Positions 405-36,061 of a DNA stretch of 42,398 bases are shown here, piece after piece. Numbering within the stretch: position 1 is the first letter of the stretch; each line of letters begins with the position of its first letter. A model generated the notes under the pieces. It searched no databases. It saw only the letters and a program-made list of their open reading frames with translations, and had not been told where the DNA came from. A program made the position numbers and the translations under genes. The DNA comes from a virus, in IMG/VR virus record IMGVR_UViG_3300006354_000003, positions 1 to 42,398 of that record; one strand, 5' to 3'.

Positions 405-433
405 ATACAATCATTAGAGTCGCGTACTGTCAA
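405..433 (-). promoter_or_regulatory. Leftward promoter of the TTGACAGTACGC family
   Basis: On the minus strand TTGACA (433-428) is followed by the family spacer word GTACGCGA and, 17 nt on, by TTGTAT (410-405). It would drive the gene starting at 367, with a leader of roughly 30 nt that contains a ribosome-binding site. Confidence 0.65.
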
Positions 434-458
434 CACAAAAACAACAAAAATAAAAAGG

Positions 459-6169: not shown

Positions 6170-6408
6170 ACGTGCTGGCAAGATTCGATCGTGTTCGGCA
6201 ATGGGAAAGTGTGGATCCTCTCTTGACGTTCGCACTCTATGTTGAGGCGGTAGCTGCCGGCCGTATAGAGTGCGATGTGTGCGCGGCGTCGCAAATGACC
6301 GGGATTGCGGAGGCCGCCCGTCGAGCGATTATCGCGGCTACTGGCACGACGTGGAAAACGAACCCTCTTTACGAAAATGCGTTGACAGTACGCGAAACGA
6401 AAGGATAG
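6166..6408 (+). CDS. Small hypothetical protein
   Basis: 80 residues from ATG 6166, overlapping the preceding stop by 4 nt. It has a helical N terminus (VLARFDRVRQWESVDPLLTF) and two cysteines in IECDVCAASQM near residue 37, too few for an obvious zinc site. The -35 box of the next promoter lies within its last codons. Not recognised. Confidence 0.65.
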   Translation: MNVLARFDRVRQWESVDPLLTFALYVEAVAAGRIECDVCAASQMTGIAEAARRAIIAATGTTWKTNPLYENALTVRETKG

Positions 6409-17592: not shown

Positions 17593-17635
17593 TTGACCGA
17601 GTGGTACGCAGGATCGGATGTGCTTTGACGACCTG

Positions 17636-17663
17636 TTGACAGTACGCGAATAACCTGTACTGT
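17636..17663 (+). promoter_or_regulatory. Promoter giving a leaderless ParA-like transcript
   Basis: TTGACA 17636-17641, spacer GTACGCGAATAACCTG (16 nt) and TACTGT 17658-17663. GCACGGC then leads to ATG 17671. Confidence 0.78.
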
Positions 17664-24676: not shown

Positions 24677-24705
24677 ACTATAGTGATGTATTAGTGTACT
24701 GTCAA
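24677..24705 (-). promoter_or_regulatory. Leftward promoter of the TTGACAGTAC family
   Basis: On the minus strand TTGACA (24705-24700), spacer GTACACTAATACATCAC (17 nt) and TATAGT (24682-24677). The leader ends AACGAGAAAGGAACACGGAC before ATG 24642, like the leader at 13342. Confidence 0.73.
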
Positions 24706-24828
24706 CACGTAAGTTTATTGTATTCGTGCTTCGTTCTGTTTTGTAACAACTTGTGATAATTAAAATAAACTATATAAATCAACATCTCTACTTCATTATT
24801 ACTTTATCTGCGACCAAATAACCATGAA

Positions 24829-30242: not shown

Positions 30243-31409
30243 ATGGCGAATACCCTTACCTCCCTTACCCCGACGATTTACGAGTCGCTCGATATTGTGT
30301 CTCGGGAATTGCTCGGATTCATCAGTGCAGCGGCGCGCAATTCGTCCGCCGAACGAGCGGCGCTCAATCAACAAATCCTTGTTCCGATCGTTCCGGCGCA
30401 AGGTGCCAACGATAACACGCCTGCGGTGACGCCGCCGAATACCGGCGACCAAACAGTTGCAAGCGTGCCTATGACCATCAACAAGTCGAAGCACGTTCCG
30501 ATCCGGTGGAATGGCGAAGAACAGCGCGGGCTGACGAATGCCGGCGAATACGGCGGGATTCTCAAAAATCAGTTCACGCAGGCGTTCCGTACGCTTACGA
30601 ACCTGATGGAAATCGATCTTGCGGTTGCGGCATATCAGGCTGCATCGCGTGCGGTCGGAACGCCGGCCACCGCTCCATTCGGTACCGCAGGTGATCTTTC
30701 CGATTCGGCGAACGTGCGGCGCATTCTGGACGATAACGGTGCCCCACAAAGCGACCTGCATTTGGTTCTCGGCGCGGCGGCCGTGGCCAACGTCCGGGGC
30801 AAGCAGTCCACCTTGTTCAAGGTGAATGAAGCCGGGACGGATGCGCTGTTGCGTCAAGGCACGATCGGCATGTTGGAAGGATTCAACGTCCATACGACTG
30901 GACAAGTTCAGACTCCGACCAAGGGTACCGGTGCAGCCTATACCACCACCGCGGCCGGCTTTGCGGTTGGCACGACTGTCATTCCGCTGATTACCGGTTC
31001 CGGCACCGTCCTTGCCGGTGACGTCGTGACGTTCGCGGGCGACACGAACAAATACGTGGTTAATACCGGCATTGCGGCGCCGGGCTCGATCACGCTAAAT
31101 AATCCCGGCTTGATGGTCGCCATTCCGACCGCTGCAACGGCTCTTACCGTTGGTGCCACGGCAACGCAGAATATTGCTTGCGATCGGAACGCGTTGCAGT
31201 TGGTTACCCGTGCCCCGCTTATGCCGGTCGGGCCTGATGGCAAGGCGATGGACATGGCTGATGATGTGATTTCGGTTACGGACCCGATTTCGCTGCTTAC
31301 CTTCGACGTCGCGGTATATCGGCAGTTCTTGCAGCTTACCTACCATGTGCGAATCGCGTGGGGCGCGGCGGCAGTGAAACAGAATCATATCGCTGTTTTG
31401 CTCGGCTAA
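30243..31409 (+). CDS. Major capsid protein (P22 gp5-like)
   Basis: 388 residues from ATG 30243 after AAAGGATTC. The N terminus LTPTIYESLDIVSRELLGFI, then SSAERAALNQQI and VPMTINKSKHVPIRWNGEEQ match the P22-type coat family, an HK97 fold with an inserted domain. The insertion is probably the segment near residues 225-320 (AYTTTAAGFAVGTTVIPLI onward). The C terminus MPVGPDGKAMDMADD and YRQFLQLTYHVRIAWG are also typical. It forms the icosahedral shell. Confidence 0.88.
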   Translation: MANTLTSLTPTIYESLDIVSRELLGFISAAARNSSAERAALNQQILVPIVPAQGANDNTPAVTPPNTGDQTVASVPMTINKSKHVPIRWNGEEQRGLTNAGEYGGILKNQFTQAFRTLTNLMEIDLAVAAYQAASRAVGTPATAPFGTAGDLSDSANVRRILDDNGAPQSDLHLVLGAAAVANVRGKQSTLFKVNEAGTDALLRQGTIGMLEGFNVHTTGQVQTPTKGTGAAYTTTAAGFAVGTTVIPLITGSGTVLAGDVVTFAGDTNKYVVNTGIAAPGSITLNNPGLMVAIPTAATALTVGATATQNIACDRNALQLVTRAPLMPVGPDGKAMDMADDVISVTDPISLLTFDVAVYRQFLQLTYHVRIAWGAAAVKQNHIAVLLG

Positions 31410-31412
31410 CGG

Positions 31413-31440
31413 TTGACAGTACGCGATATACGTGGACTGT
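31413..31440 (+). promoter_or_regulatory. TTGACAGTACGCGA promoter within the head operon
   Basis: TTGACA 31413-31418, spacer GTACGCGATATACGTG (16 nt) and GACTGT 31435-31440, just after the coat stop. It would add transcription of the connector and tail genes. Confidence 0.66.
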
Positions 31441-31497: not shown

Positions 31498-31668
31498 ATG
31501 TCCAACGAGTTTCGTTGTCCGACTGTCACCATCAAATCGGACGAATCGCCGGACGGTTATATCGTCATCAACGAATCGGATTTCAATCCGACGAAGCATG
31601 AGCGCTTTGTCACGCCCCCGCCGGCTATGCTTTCACCGCTGCTGCCGCCCCCCGAGGTACCAGCGTGA
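31498..31668 (+). CDS. Small head-region protein with INESDF motif
   Basis: 56 residues from ATG 31498, with AGAGGGAATC as ribosome site. CPTVTIKSDESPDGYIVINE runs into SDFNPTKHERF, a motif found in short proteins beside coat genes in many phages. A proline-rich tail follows. It is a tandem relative of the next gene, which carries INESDFDPMKH. Its stop overlaps the next GTG. Its role in the head is unknown. Confidence 0.72.
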   Translation: MSNEFRCPTVTIKSDESPDGYIVINESDFNPTKHERFVTPPPAMLSPLLPPPEVPA

Positions 31669-31973
31669 ATTCTCACGGGCACTGCGCAATCGTAACGGTA
31701 ATGTCTGATACCGCGCCGGGCGGCGTGCTTCGCATTAACGAATCAGATTTTGATCCGATGAAGCATGTTCGCGCGGATCCGAATGCGCCGTTGCCCCTTC
31801 CGCCTCCACCGATCTTGCCGCCTCCACCTGGACCACTGGACGGACTTCCGGCCGATTGGCGGGATAAGCCGGCTAAATGGCTTCGCGAAACGGCGGAACG
31901 GCTCACCGCTCGCACTCCCGACAATCGGGAGCAAGCGATTCAGCTTATCGAAGCTTGGTTGAAAGCAGGATAA
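31665..31973 (+). CDS. Small head-region protein, second INESDF copy
   Basis: 102 residues from GTG 31665; ATG 31701 (MSDTAPGGVLRINESDF) is an alternative start nearer the conserved part. After INESDFDPMKHVRADPNAP comes a proline-rich linker (LPLPPPPILPPPPGPL) and a C-terminal helical unit WRDKPAKWLRETAERL that resembles the N-terminal part of small phage head-accessory proteins. The repeat of the motif in two adjacent genes suggests duplication. Confidence 0.68.
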   Translation: MNSHGHCAIVTVMSDTAPGGVLRINESDFDPMKHVRADPNAPLPLPPPPILPPPPGPLDGLPADWRDKPAKWLRETAERLTARTPDNREQAIQLIEAWLKAG

Positions 31974-31977
31974 TCAA

Positions 31978-32553
31978 ATGGCACTTTGCGCAACGTGTTC
32001 GTTTTTCACTCCGAAGGGTGCACTTTCAATCAACGTGCCAGCAATGGCAGCGGTTCGAACGCGTGAAGATTTGGTCCCCGCAGTTTCATCCGCCGCCATT
32101 ACGGTAACCATTGCGTCACCGGGCGTGGTGACAGATACCGCGCACGGGTTGACGATCGGAACGCAAGTTTCGTTTACCACCACGGGAGCGCTGCCGACCG
32201 GTCTTTTACCAGCAACGAATTATTTCATCATCGCGGCCGGTTTTACCGCCAACTCATATCAGCTTGCACTCACGTTCAACGGTGCGGCAATCAACACAAG
32301 CGGCACGCAATCGGGTGTGCATACCAGGACAAGCATTCCGGGCACGACAAACAATACCGCGCAACCAGGTGAGGTTGCGCTTGTGGTGAATAGCTTTACA
32401 GCGGCAATAGCTGTGGCTTTCGGGGCGGCACCGGACGCAACCAGTTTGGCCGCGATAGCAAATTCGAGCGCGGGATTCGGGTTAGGTCCGGGCGCATCTG
32501 CTTTGCTCGCTGTGGCATCCGGCGATAAGGTTCATATTCGCACGATCACATAA
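31978..32553 (+). CDS. Structural protein with an inserted beta domain shared with the tail tube
   Basis: 191 residues from ATG 31978. Residues about 37-115 (ITVTIASPGVVTDTAHGLTI onward to TSGTQSGVHTRTSIPG) form a beta domain nearly identical to one in the tail tube protein at 34373. The flanks differ: VAFGAAPDATSLAAIA and ALLAVASGDKVHIRTIT. It lies after the coat gene and before the connectors, so a head decoration or stabilising role fits. Its precise role is inferred from position only. Confidence 0.7.
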   Translation: MALCATCSFFTPKGALSINVPAMAAVRTREDLVPAVSSAAITVTIASPGVVTDTAHGLTIGTQVSFTTTGALPTGLLPATNYFIIAAGFTANSYQLALTFNGAAINTSGTQSGVHTRTSIPGTTNNTAQPGEVALVVNSFTAAIAVAFGAAPDATSLAAIANSSAGFGLGPGASALLAVASGDKVHIRTIT

Positions 32554-32565
32554 GGCTGCGTCATT

Positions 32566-33135
32566 ATGTCGCTAAATACCACACCGGGCGACCCTGCGGC
32601 GGACAGTTATACATCCGTGGCGGAAGCTGATGCATATTTTTCAGCCCGTGGCGAGGCGACATGGACGGGCACTACCACGGCGAAAGAGAATGCTTTGCGT
32701 CGTGGTACAACGTATCTCGACAACGCATATCGCACGAAATATGTAGGGATTACCGCGTTGCAAACGCAGGCTTTAGGCTGGCCGCGCGTCGACGGTACAC
32801 GCGGCCCGCTGACGGTTTTCCCCGGTTACACGATTCCGCTTTATGACATCAACGGATTTCCGATCGATACGACGACGGTTCCCAAACAGGTCAAAAATGC
32901 TGCGGCGGAAGCGGCGCTACTTGCTCTTACGGGTGTGGTGTTGGAACCGCGACTCGTGCGCGGTGGTCAAATCAAGAGCACGCGAAGCAAGGTCGATGTG
33001 TTGGAAACCGAGACCGTATACATGGACGGTGCGCCGTCTGTAGACCGCTATACAATCATCGAAGGGCTGTTGCGCGGTCTTGTGACCGGTAACCCTGGAT
33101 CGTCGTCCGGCAACGTCGTGTTGGTGCGGGGATGA
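32566..33135 (+). CDS. Head-tail connector (DnaT-like/gp6 type)
   Basis: 189 residues from ATG 32566. SYTSVAEADAYFSARGEATW, then ALRRGTTYLDNAYRTKYVGI and LGWPRVDG form the signature of the helical DnaT-like connector family found after phage coat genes. The C-terminal KVDVLETETVYMDGAPSVDR is also common. It would form the adaptor ring below the portal. It overlaps the next gene by 4 nt. Confidence 0.84.
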   Translation: MSLNTTPGDPAADSYTSVAEADAYFSARGEATWTGTTTAKENALRRGTTYLDNAYRTKYVGITALQTQALGWPRVDGTRGPLTVFPGYTIPLYDINGFPIDTTTVPKQVKNAAAEAALLALTGVVLEPRLVRGGQIKSTRSKVDVLETETVYMDGAPSVDRYTIIEGLLRGLVTGNPGSSSGNVVLVRG

Positions 33136-33515
33136 CCGCTTTCGATTACACAGCTATTCGAGCGGTTGCCGATCAATTGTTGACCGATTTTGGGCAAGCT
33201 GTGTTAATTCGTCGCGCGACGAATACCGCAGGTTTGACACCGTGGGAACCTTCGCAGGCAACGACTGATTATGCGTCGATAGGCGTAGTGACGAATTTAA
33301 CTCGTTGGTACGCATCTTTTGCGGAAAATTCTGACATTTTGCGCACTGATCGCCTTGGTTATGTTTCGGCCGGGCCGCTGGTAGCTCTGAATATCGTGCC
33401 GACACCATTTGATTTATTTGTGACCGTTACAGGGCAGATATTGCGCATCATCGACGCAAAACCTATCGCGCCAGCCGGAATTCCTGTGCTGTACGTGTTG
33501 CAATTGCGGAGTTGA
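33132..33515 (+). CDS. Putative head-closure/stopper protein
   Basis: 127 residues from ATG 33132 (ATGA overlap). It is beta-rich: FGQAVLIRRATNTAGLTPWE, then LVALNIVPTPFDLFVTVTGQ and LRIIDAKPIAPAGIPVLYVL, a layout shared by small stopper proteins that follow the connector gene. The assignment depends on size and order (connector, stopper, neck, terminator, tube). Confidence 0.72.
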   Translation: MTAFDYTAIRAVADQLLTDFGQAVLIRRATNTAGLTPWEPSQATTDYASIGVVTNLTRWYASFAENSDILRTDRLGYVSAGPLVALNIVPTPFDLFVTVTGQILRIIDAKPIAPAGIPVLYVLQLRS

Positions 33516-33519
33516 GGCG

Positions 33520-33933
33520 GTGGCGTTCGGTAATTTCACCCTTGATATTCAAAAGTTCGTAGATAAAGCGAACGGCAATATTGATTTGGTGATTAAGAAA
33601 ATCGCGCTCGATTTGTTCCGTCGCGTCATCATGAAAAGTCCCGTGGACACAGGTCGATTCAAAGGCAATTGGCAAATTGCGATCGGCGCAATTCCGAGTG
33701 GAACATTAGACCTTACAGACCCGTCAGGATCCGCAACCATATCGCGTGTAACCGCTACCGCGCTCGGGTTAAAAGCAGGCGACGTTATTACACTTGTGAA
33801 CAATCTTAGTTATGCAAATCGCCTCGAATATGGTTACTCCAAGCAGGCACCGGCCGGAATGGTTCGAACGACTGTGCAAGAATACCCGCAAGTTGTGACG
33901 ATGGCAGCAAACGAGGTAAACCGCGGTGGCTGA
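33520..33933 (+). CDS. Neck/tail-completion protein (HK97 gp10-like)
   Basis: 137 residues from GTG 33520. The N-terminal helix with IALDLFRRVIMKSPVDTGRF then KGNWQIAIG is the conserved core of HK97-gp10-like proteins, and NNLSYANRLEYGYSKQAPAG followed by MVRTTVQE the usual C-terminal part. It sits at the head-tail interface. It overlaps the next start by 8 nt. Confidence 0.82.
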   Translation: MAFGNFTLDIQKFVDKANGNIDLVIKKIALDLFRRVIMKSPVDTGRFKGNWQIAIGAIPSGTLDLTDPSGSATISRVTATALGLKAGDVITLVNNLSYANRLEYGYSKQAPAGMVRTTVQEYPQVVTMAANEVNRGG

Positions 33934-34363
33934 TCCAATCAATGTCCTGATTCAAGCGGCAATGTCAGCACAATTGACCACACCAGCGCTTACATCGCCG
34001 GCAACGCCGATTGCTTACGCGTTCGTTCCGTTCACACCGACTCCAGGTGTATCCTTTTTGCAAATTTGTCCGGTGTTGCGCGCGGCACCGAATGCACCAG
34101 GCTTGAATCGATTCAGTGGAACAATGTTTGTCGGCGTCTTTCAAATCGATGCTGTGGTTCCTGATGGTAACGGAGAGGCAGCCGGGTTACGACTCGCTTC
34201 GTTAGTCGCAACCCGATTTCAATTCGGAACCGTGTTGCTGTTGCAGGCCGGCCCGAATGTGAAACTGCAATTGAACGGAGTCCCAACAATAGCCCCCGCG
34301 GTTAAAGATGCGCCGTGGATAAGGTTCCCGGTAAGCATCCCATACTTTGTGACGCAGCAATAG
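33926..34363 (+). CDS. Tail terminator-like protein (DUF4128 type)
   Basis: 145 residues from GTG 33926. The layout MADPINVLIQAAMSAQLTTP, then TPIAYAFVPFTPTPGVSFLQ and FSGTMFVGVFQIDAVVPDGN fits tail-terminator proteins that cap the tube, and the gene lies directly upstream of the tube gene. It would stop tail growth at the length set by the tape measure. Confidence 0.78.
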   Translation: MADPINVLIQAAMSAQLTTPALTSPATPIAYAFVPFTPTPGVSFLQICPVLRAAPNAPGLNRFSGTMFVGVFQIDAVVPDGNGEAAGLRLASLVATRFQFGTVLLLQAGPNVKLQLNGVPTIAPAVKDAPWIRFPVSIPYFVTQQ

Positions 34364-34372
34364 GAGTCTGCA

Positions 34373-35080
34373 ATGGCAAACATTTTTACTGCAGCGGGTG
34401 CCACGCTTTCAATCGGTACTACGGCTGCAAGTGGCGCGACCGATACCTATACGACGATCGCGAACGTGACGGATATTCCGGAGTTCGGCCGGAATTACAA
34501 TATTATCAAAGTGACTCCACTTTCCACGCGCGGAACGCTCAAAATCAAAGGAAGTTTCGAGGAAGGTGACCTTGCGGTAAAGCTGTTGCGTGATCCCGCC
34601 GACCCTGGACAAGCCGCCGCGATCCTGGCCCGCGATATTGATTCCGATTTCAATTTCAAGATCGGCATTAACGACGCGGCACCCGTTACGACCGCTCCCG
34701 TTACCATCACCATTGCAGCACCGGGTGTGGTAACTGATACGGCTCACGGACTTTCCATAGGCACGCAGGTATCGTTTGCCACCACGGGCGCGTTGCCGAT
34801 CGGTCTTACGGCGGCAACGCCGTACTTCATCATCGCGACAGGCTTCACGGCGAATAGTTACCAACTTGCCCTCACGGCCGGCGGCTCGGCAATCACTACG
34901 TCCGGTACGCAATCTGGTGTGCACACGCGGTCAAGTATTCCAGTGGCTTCAAACGTGATCTTCAAAGCCAAGGTGACAAGCTACACACTTGGGCTCGGCA
35001 CGGTCGACTCGCCGCTTGATGCAACGCTCATGTTGGCGCTCAAGTCCGGTTCAAGCATCGAAAGCGTGCATTTGCCTTAA
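34373..35080 (+). CDS. Major tail tube protein with an inserted beta domain
   Basis: 235 residues from ATG 34373. The tube fold is seen in VTDIPEFGRNYNIIKVTPLS then RGTLKIKGSFEEGDLAVKLL and, after the insert, in FKAKVTSYTLGLGTVDSPLD. Residues about 107-190 (VTITIAAPGVVTDTAHGLSI to TSGTQSGVHTRSSIP) are an extra beta domain, which also occurs in the protein at 31978; it should project from the tube. The gene ends the head-neck-tube block and is followed by a promoter and terminator. Confidence 0.85.
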   Translation: MANIFTAAGATLSIGTTAASGATDTYTTIANVTDIPEFGRNYNIIKVTPLSTRGTLKIKGSFEEGDLAVKLLRDPADPGQAAAILARDIDSDFNFKIGINDAAPVTTAPVTITIAAPGVVTDTAHGLSIGTQVSFATTGALPIGLTAATPYFIIATGFTANSYQLALTAGGSAITTSGTQSGVHTRSSIPVASNVIFKAKVTSYTLGLGTVDSPLDATLMLALKSGSSIESVHLP

Positions 35081-35086
35081 TGACTG

Positions 35087-35113
35087 TTGACAGTACGCGA
35101 CTCGCGTGACAGT
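35087..35113 (+). promoter_or_regulatory. TTGACAGTACGCGA motif after the tail tube gene
   Basis: TTGACA 35087-35092, 15-nt spacer and GACAGT 35108-35113; the -10 overlaps a second half-motif GTGACAGTCTGCGAA (35106-35120). Since a terminator follows at 35146, a transcript from here would first make a short leader of some 50 nt. Confidence 0.52.
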
Positions 35114-35145: not shown

Positions 35146-35177
35146 CCCCGGACGTGTATAGCGTCCGGGGCTTTTTC
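35146..35177 (+). terminator. Rho-independent terminator after the tail tube gene
   Basis: CCCCGGACG-tgtatag-CGTCCGGGG (35146-35170), a perfect 9-bp stem, followed by CTTTTTCT. It separates the abundant tube gene from the chaperones and could limit their level. Confidence 0.88.
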
Positions 35178-36028: not shown

Positions 36029-36034
36029 GGGGCG

Positions 36035-36061
36035 TTGACAGTACACAATCTCATGGATAGT
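36035..36061 (+). promoter_or_regulatory. Promoter giving a leaderless tape-measure transcript
   Basis: TTGACA 36035-36040, spacer GTACACAATCTCATG (15 nt) and GATAGT 36056-36061. TGTGCAC follows, and ATG 36069 is 7 nt after the box. Confidence 0.72.

Follow-up and report, generated by a model that had tools for sequence, protein, structure and literature searches.

A β-barrel module shared by the tail tube protein and an accessory gene product of a viral genome

Results

The window analysed here comprises the 42,398 bases of IMG/VR virus record IMGVR_UViG_3300006354_000003. Its structural genes include a capsid gene followed by two small ORFs that both encode an INESDF motif, a 191-codon gene beginning at position 31978 and the gene for adaptor Ad1 (Table 1). 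The tube gene lies between those for the tail terminator and the tape measure, as in λ gpV-type siphophages. A possible ribosome-binding AGGA precedes the ATG of the gene at 31978. The small proline-rich ORF immediately 5′ of it gave no match in a Pfam search, and a similar ORF is present in the related locus L171. The two adjacent small ORFs also contain a 40-nt tandem duplication (83% identical) that encodes INESDFxPxKH in each.

Table 1. Features of the window discussed in the text (coordinates in the record; blank cells, no entry).
Feature	Coordinates	Strand	Remarks
Major capsid protein gene	30243..31409	+	PHROG 283, E 1e-90; upstream edge of the variable slot
Tandem duplication in the slot, first unit	31566..31605		40 nt
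Tandem duplication in the slot, second unit	31733..31772		40 nt
Small proline-rich ORF	31701..31973	+	immediately 5′ of the gene at 31978
Accessory gene	31978..32553	+	191 codons
Module copy 1	32083..32352	+	about residues 36-125 of the 31978 product
Head-tail adaptor Ad1 gene	32566..33135	+	PHROG 477, E 6e-36; downstream edge of the variable slot
Head closure gene	starts 33132
Neck protein gene	starts 33520
Tail terminator gene	starts 33926
Major tail tube protein gene	34373..35080	+	235 aa; PHROG 158; λ gpV fold
Tube body 5′ of the module	34373..34678	+	residues 1-102
Module copy 2	34685..34954	+	tube insert flanked by strands 93-99 and 193-207
Tube body 3′ of the module	34949..35077	+	residues 193-235
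Terminator-like hairpin	35146..35170		between the tube gene and the next gene
Tape measure gene	starts 36060
15-mer, exact	420..434	−
15-mer, exact	6381..6395	+
15-mer, exact	17635..17649	+
15-mer, two mismatches	24692..24706	−
15-mer, exact	31412..31426	+	directly 3′ of the capsid gene, head of the slot
15-mer, exact	35086..35100	+	directly 3′ of the tube gene
15-mer, two mismatches	36034..36048	+

Two further features of the window concern its possible transcription signals. The 15-mer GTTGACAGTACGCGA occurs seven times at up to two mismatches, compared with 0.12 occurrences expected, and seven were reached in none of 100 shuffles. It may be a phage promoter because it contains a −35-like TTGACA and, at several sites, a hexamer containing AT follows some 17 nt downstream; exact matches were found in eight stretches among the viral contigs. 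The terminator-like hairpin beyond the tube gene is strong, with 10 pairs, eight of them GC, and a T-rich tail. Rfam and tRNA scans of the window returned nothing informative.

Comparison of the gene at 31978 with the tube gene revealed a direct repeat of 270 nt at 72% DNA identity. At the protein level, residues ~36-122 of the 31978 product are homologous to residues ~105-194 of the tube, so the near-identical block seen in the initial annotation is real and extends slightly beyond the ranges given there (37-115 and 107-190). The local protein alignment scored 353, compared with 50.6 ± 8.4 (maximum 82) in 300 shuffles, and chance similarity was therefore rejected. Only these two copies were found within the record. 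Shuffling gave no significant mutual similarity between the flanks of the two proteins (C-terminal p 0.13, N-terminal p 0.24), in keeping with the original view that they are unrelated; on the same C-terminal value we rejected a partial duplication of the C-terminal strands of the tube into the 31978 product.

The pair was described at the outset as clearly more diverged in DNA than in protein, and over an 84-codon core we found 78.6% amino acid, 72.6% nucleotide and 52% third-position identity. NG86 estimates for these 84 codons (pS 0.58, dS 1.11, dN 0.17) confirm that divergence and indicate a pair under constraint, with dN/dS of about 0.15. The synonymous estimate of about 1.1 likewise agrees with the suggestion that the exchange was not very recent.

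Several comparisons placed the module of the tube outside the tube fold. The tube sequence profile matched PHROG 158 (E 3.3e-18) over residues 1-227, and the tubes of phages VW-6S, Effie and RHph_Y52 can be aligned with the window tube before and after the module but lack exactly that block; three Rhizobium/Sinorhizobium phage tubes carry the module at the identical point. The AlphaFold2 model of the tube, built with 28 aligned tubes, had a mean pLDDT of 87.4 and showed a separate barrel between the two flanking strands. Outside the module, the best solved-structure match of the tube core was λ gpV (Z 15.7, rmsd 2.2, 140 residues); the tube used as a single sequence against the PDB gave nothing informative. 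Alignments and model thus agree that the module in the tube is a true insertion into one loop of a tube of predicted λ gpV type, and in the model it is not an integral strand of the tube fold. The proposal that both proteins carry an inserted domain therefore holds for the tube, given the module-free tubes and the model; in the 31978 product, whose flanks are orphans with a low-confidence fold, the module may have entered an older protein or the gene may have been put together around it. In three other loci a second tube-like ORF without the module lies directly 3′ of the module-bearing tube gene (L097:5374-5829, L096:5374-5667 and L105:5400-5864).

The module itself is predicted to be a discrete all-β barrel, which is a fold assignment and not a function. 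Neither Pfam nor NCBIfam held a model that matched it above cut-off, and weak matches were obtained to PHROGs 30390 and 4711, neither of which has an assigned function. Fold comparison used the 31978 model as query, with matches taken over the module, phage names taken from entry titles and Z values that the tool's own note grades as middling. The best match was the FCCH domain of the ubiquitin E1 enzyme UBA6 (Z 9.4, rmsd 2.2, 78 residues), and the list also held tail tubes (FCWL1, Z 8.5; T1, 8.2; Mystique, 7.4; phiXacJX1, 6.8), the FCWL1 and phiXacJX1 chains being assigned as tubes because they match the window tube model. Endosialidases were also listed, with phi92 at Z 7.1 and EndoNF residues 424-507 at Z 6.1-6.3; Foldseek alone ranked EndoNF first, at E 0.03. 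In the window the module is carried by a tail tube protein and by an orphan product of 191 aa, neither of them an E1 enzyme.

In sequence, the relation to endosialidases is faint. The module profile matched the phi92 endosialidase domain weakly (E 0.03 for A4 and 0.64 for the smaller A6), hhalign gave probabilities of 6% and 1% for the module against the endosialidase barrel, neither window copy matched the corresponding Pfam family, PF12195, at E up to 1, and the best PF12195 score among module relatives was 16.8 bits, below the cut-off of 35. Across 67 aligned rows the stretch TTGALPTGL shows little or no variation, and EndoNF residues S460 and S468 align in or beside it; this correspondence is a lead only, because the hhalign probabilities of 6% and 1% are very low. 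Matches to LppM and PKD_6 were weak and kinship with either was rejected. Pfam gave no Big_1 or Big_2 match that would indicate an Ig domain, and the VIA-align fold lists were led by FCCH domains; families missing from such lists may still match. The T1 tube domain (PDB 9l0f, residues 16-97), Ig-like according to its authors, falls among module matches led by FCCH, and its Ig label may be questionable. We found no literature linking FCCH or endosialidase barrels to tail tubes in the largely open-access literature that was searched.

A scan of viral contigs returned at least 577 relatives among 600 stretches, of which 80 were kept, and a scan of genome contigs gave 68 loci. After five rows that repeat the window, L003, L004 or L005 had been dropped (L001, L002, L024, L027 and L093), 157 distinct loci among all those examined had the module, in 164 ORFs; a carrier is a tail tube in 42 loci, proportions that are no census because loci were picked by module or capsid/adaptor similarity. 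As judged from these scans, the module is widespread among phages, and the Pfam and NCBIfam searches yielded no curated model for it above cut-off. None of the 42 tube-carrier loci has a second module ORF in the stretch examined (for 41 of them this stretch includes 2,500 bases or more upstream), and the second copy of the window was therefore not seen elsewhere. When ten non-tube carriers were compared with PHROGs, four (L026, L037, L058 and L113) matched tail families beyond the module. Twelve ORFs, including those of L118, L099, L056 and L057, have at least two module matches per protein; L118 has four in one 2463-residue frame, and some of the matches in L099 and L123 are partial or overlapping.

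The 31978 product consists of a flank of about 35 residues, the module and a C-terminal flank of about 70 residues. In its model the module had a pLDDT of ~87-97, compared with 49-64 for the blocks of residues 1-30 and 121-191. Neither flank had relatives in phages, in the loci examined or in Pfam, and an NCBIfam search with both the 31978 product and the tube gave nothing above cut-off. One viral-contig match to the C-terminus, in L170, was judged spurious because the alignment is short and falls in GC-rich sequence where several reading frames are open over long distances. Among 31 loci with both genes on the + strand, the interval between capsid and adaptor genes ranged from 62 to 4312 bases. 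L004 has no gene at the place of the gene at 31978; that place is occupied by a SprT-like gene in L171, by a GNAT gene together with another frame of 187 residues in L233, and by two other ORFs plus a third in L295. By its gene content the interval is a hypervariable accessory slot, and because it varies in this way among relatives we place the gene at 31978 in such a slot. The initial annotation had put the 31978 product on the head; by gene position it may be a head protein, but its flanks are orphans and SprT-like and GNAT genes occupy the slot in relatives.

Module and body have different histories among tubes. The body of the window tube is nearest to that of L171, with 54% identity in the part preceding the module, 49% in the part following it and a tree support of 99/96; the body data rejected a grouping of the window with L003 (p-AU 0.0001). 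The module of the window tube, in contrast, is nearest to that of L003 (78% identity; tree support 98/98), although the bodies of these two tubes are only 25% and 13% identical, and the modules of the window and L171 tubes share 41% identity. The module data did not formally reject a grouping of the window with L171 (p-AU 0.17), and the choice of groups was made with the identities already known. Because the two histories differ, the module in tubes is, on these trees, an exchanged cassette.

In a tree of 55 of 64 module rows, from which near-identical modules had been removed and whose bootstrap had not settled, the 31978 copy was sister to the copy in the window tube (95/78), and the remaining rows of the enclosing four-row clade (99/96) were tube modules. 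Among the modules compared, the 31978 copy is closest to the window tube copy (74-77%), and the synonymous difference of this pair (pS 0.60) was the lowest of 21 pairs tested, the others having pS of 0.66 or more. Since it groups with its own tube module inside a clade of tube modules, the 31978 copy was probably copied from a tube, and a copy from the tube into the accessory gene would be the simplest order.

Discussion

We propose, tentatively and with slightly less than even confidence, that a mobile barrel cassette decorates the tube, that an old second copy of it lies in an accessory gene and that the barrels hold host polysaccharide. The barrel would sit on the outer tube surface, where the matching fold is located in phage T1, and the tube-derived module, once joined to other flanks, would make the 31978 product an accessory virion decoration. 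The barrels could then contact host surface polysaccharide weakly and many times over, and such repeated contacts might keep the particle at the cell until a receptor is found. The domains that the module resembles include sugar-binding parts of phage enzymes, so it may help the particle to stick to its host; adhesion to a host glycan is plausible and has precedents in lactococcal 936 phages and in Ig-like domains. The fold alone is no proof of sugar binding, because the best match, the E1 FCCH domain, is not known to be a lectin. A broader proposal, which we consider quite unlikely, is that the moving cassette brought the same ligand-binding barrel to two sites, an accessory head-side protein and every tube subunit, with the whole surface binding a host envelope glycan and the ligand switchable by cassette exchange. 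With regard to the initial observation, the tube half is established, and the head half and the ligand are not.

The main alternative is that the barrel serves the structure of the tube, as an ornament for stiffening or spacing, and has no host ligand; the second copy would then be incidental. In the accessible part of the report on phage YSD1, domain2 of the tube is an inserted β domain that packs on the neighbouring tube subunit and has a stabilising role (PMC8718954). Tubes without the module and many tubes with it both exist, and the most conserved module residues are common to modules in very different proteins, as expected of residues that keep a fold. The module also moves, however, among unrelated proteins, including tail-fibre-like ones, and among tubes with 25% body identity, so that a self-contained domain fits better than one fitted to its neighbour. 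We regard the ornament as rather unlikely. A further alternative is that the 31978 product is cargo of the slot rather than a virion protein, for instance a protein, secreted or intracellular, that acts on the host. Its flanks match no virion family, the slot of relatives carries SprT-like and GNAT genes, and a copy of the repeated promoter-like 15-mer stands at the head of the slot, at 31412. Yet the gene runs in the same direction as the late structural genes among which it lies, and tail families were matched beyond the module in four of the ten non-tube carriers scanned; we judge cargo to be unlikely.

The order of events is a separate matter, as both copies could have been taken independently from a pool of related modules in other phages, with no copying within this phage. 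Such a pool exists in the 157 loci, there has been time enough at a dS of about 1.1, and L003 has a module about as close to that of the window tube (78% identical) as the 31978 copy is. We nevertheless find independent gain somewhat improbable, since among the modules compared the 31978 copy is nearest to the tube copy of its own genome and the pair has the lowest pS. Under the favoured reading, with a tube copy passed to the accessory gene, the window offers a clear case of a surface cassette that appears to have been exchanged among tail tubes and to have entered a second gene, and it links a large group of phage modules to the E1-FCCH/endosialidase barrel fold. If the barrel does bind sugars of the host, one would expect many tail tubes to be adhesive over their whole length.

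Ig-like domains on phage virions, reportedly described by Fraser et al. in 2006, are said to be promiscuous surface β domains found in different virion proteins, often at the C-terminus; they have the Ig fold, whereas the best matches of the module are FCCH-type barrels. Other tubes also have an inserted β domain. In T1 gp41 (PDB 9l0f), residues 16-94 form a domain outside the tube, called Ig-like by the authors in the available text (PMC11945409), and the module aligns to residues 16-97 (Z 8.2, rmsd 2.2, 76 residues). The T1 domain differs in being inserted near the N-terminus rather than in the later hairpin of the window tube, at 21% identity, and that text reports no second carrier. The Mystique tube (PDB 9n71, residues 103-179) and, in the available account, YSD1 domain2 have an internal outer tube β domain at a similar sequence position; the Mystique tube differs in its low similarity to the module (14% identity, Z 7.4), and YSD1 domain2, according to the same account, in lying between helix 1 and strand 4 and packing on its neighbour.

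Barrels of phage enzymes and the host-binding modules of virions provide the comparisons for function. The EndoNF/phi92 barrel (PF12195) resembles the module in fold (Z 6.1-7.1) and, in a weak alignment, in an HGL..GD.V.F motif; it belongs to a tailspike enzyme rather than a tube, the module scores below the Pfam cut-off, and glycan binding has been shown for the endosialidase only. In the accessible part of PMC12632334, EndoNF has three sites for polysialic acid, of which the β-barrel is one, and S460, S468 and G504 are named for it; in that of PMC10653864 the catalytic domain of KP34gp57 is interrupted by a six-stranded barrel that helps to form the substrate pocket. Finally, the available text on lactococcal 936 phages describes BppA-type and other modules, different from the one studied here, and does not report the same sequence on the tube and the head side of one phage; the likeness is that their tube and neck modules bound host cells and that host-binding modules occupy several virion sites (tube extension, neck and Dit), with shuffling (PMC6669499).
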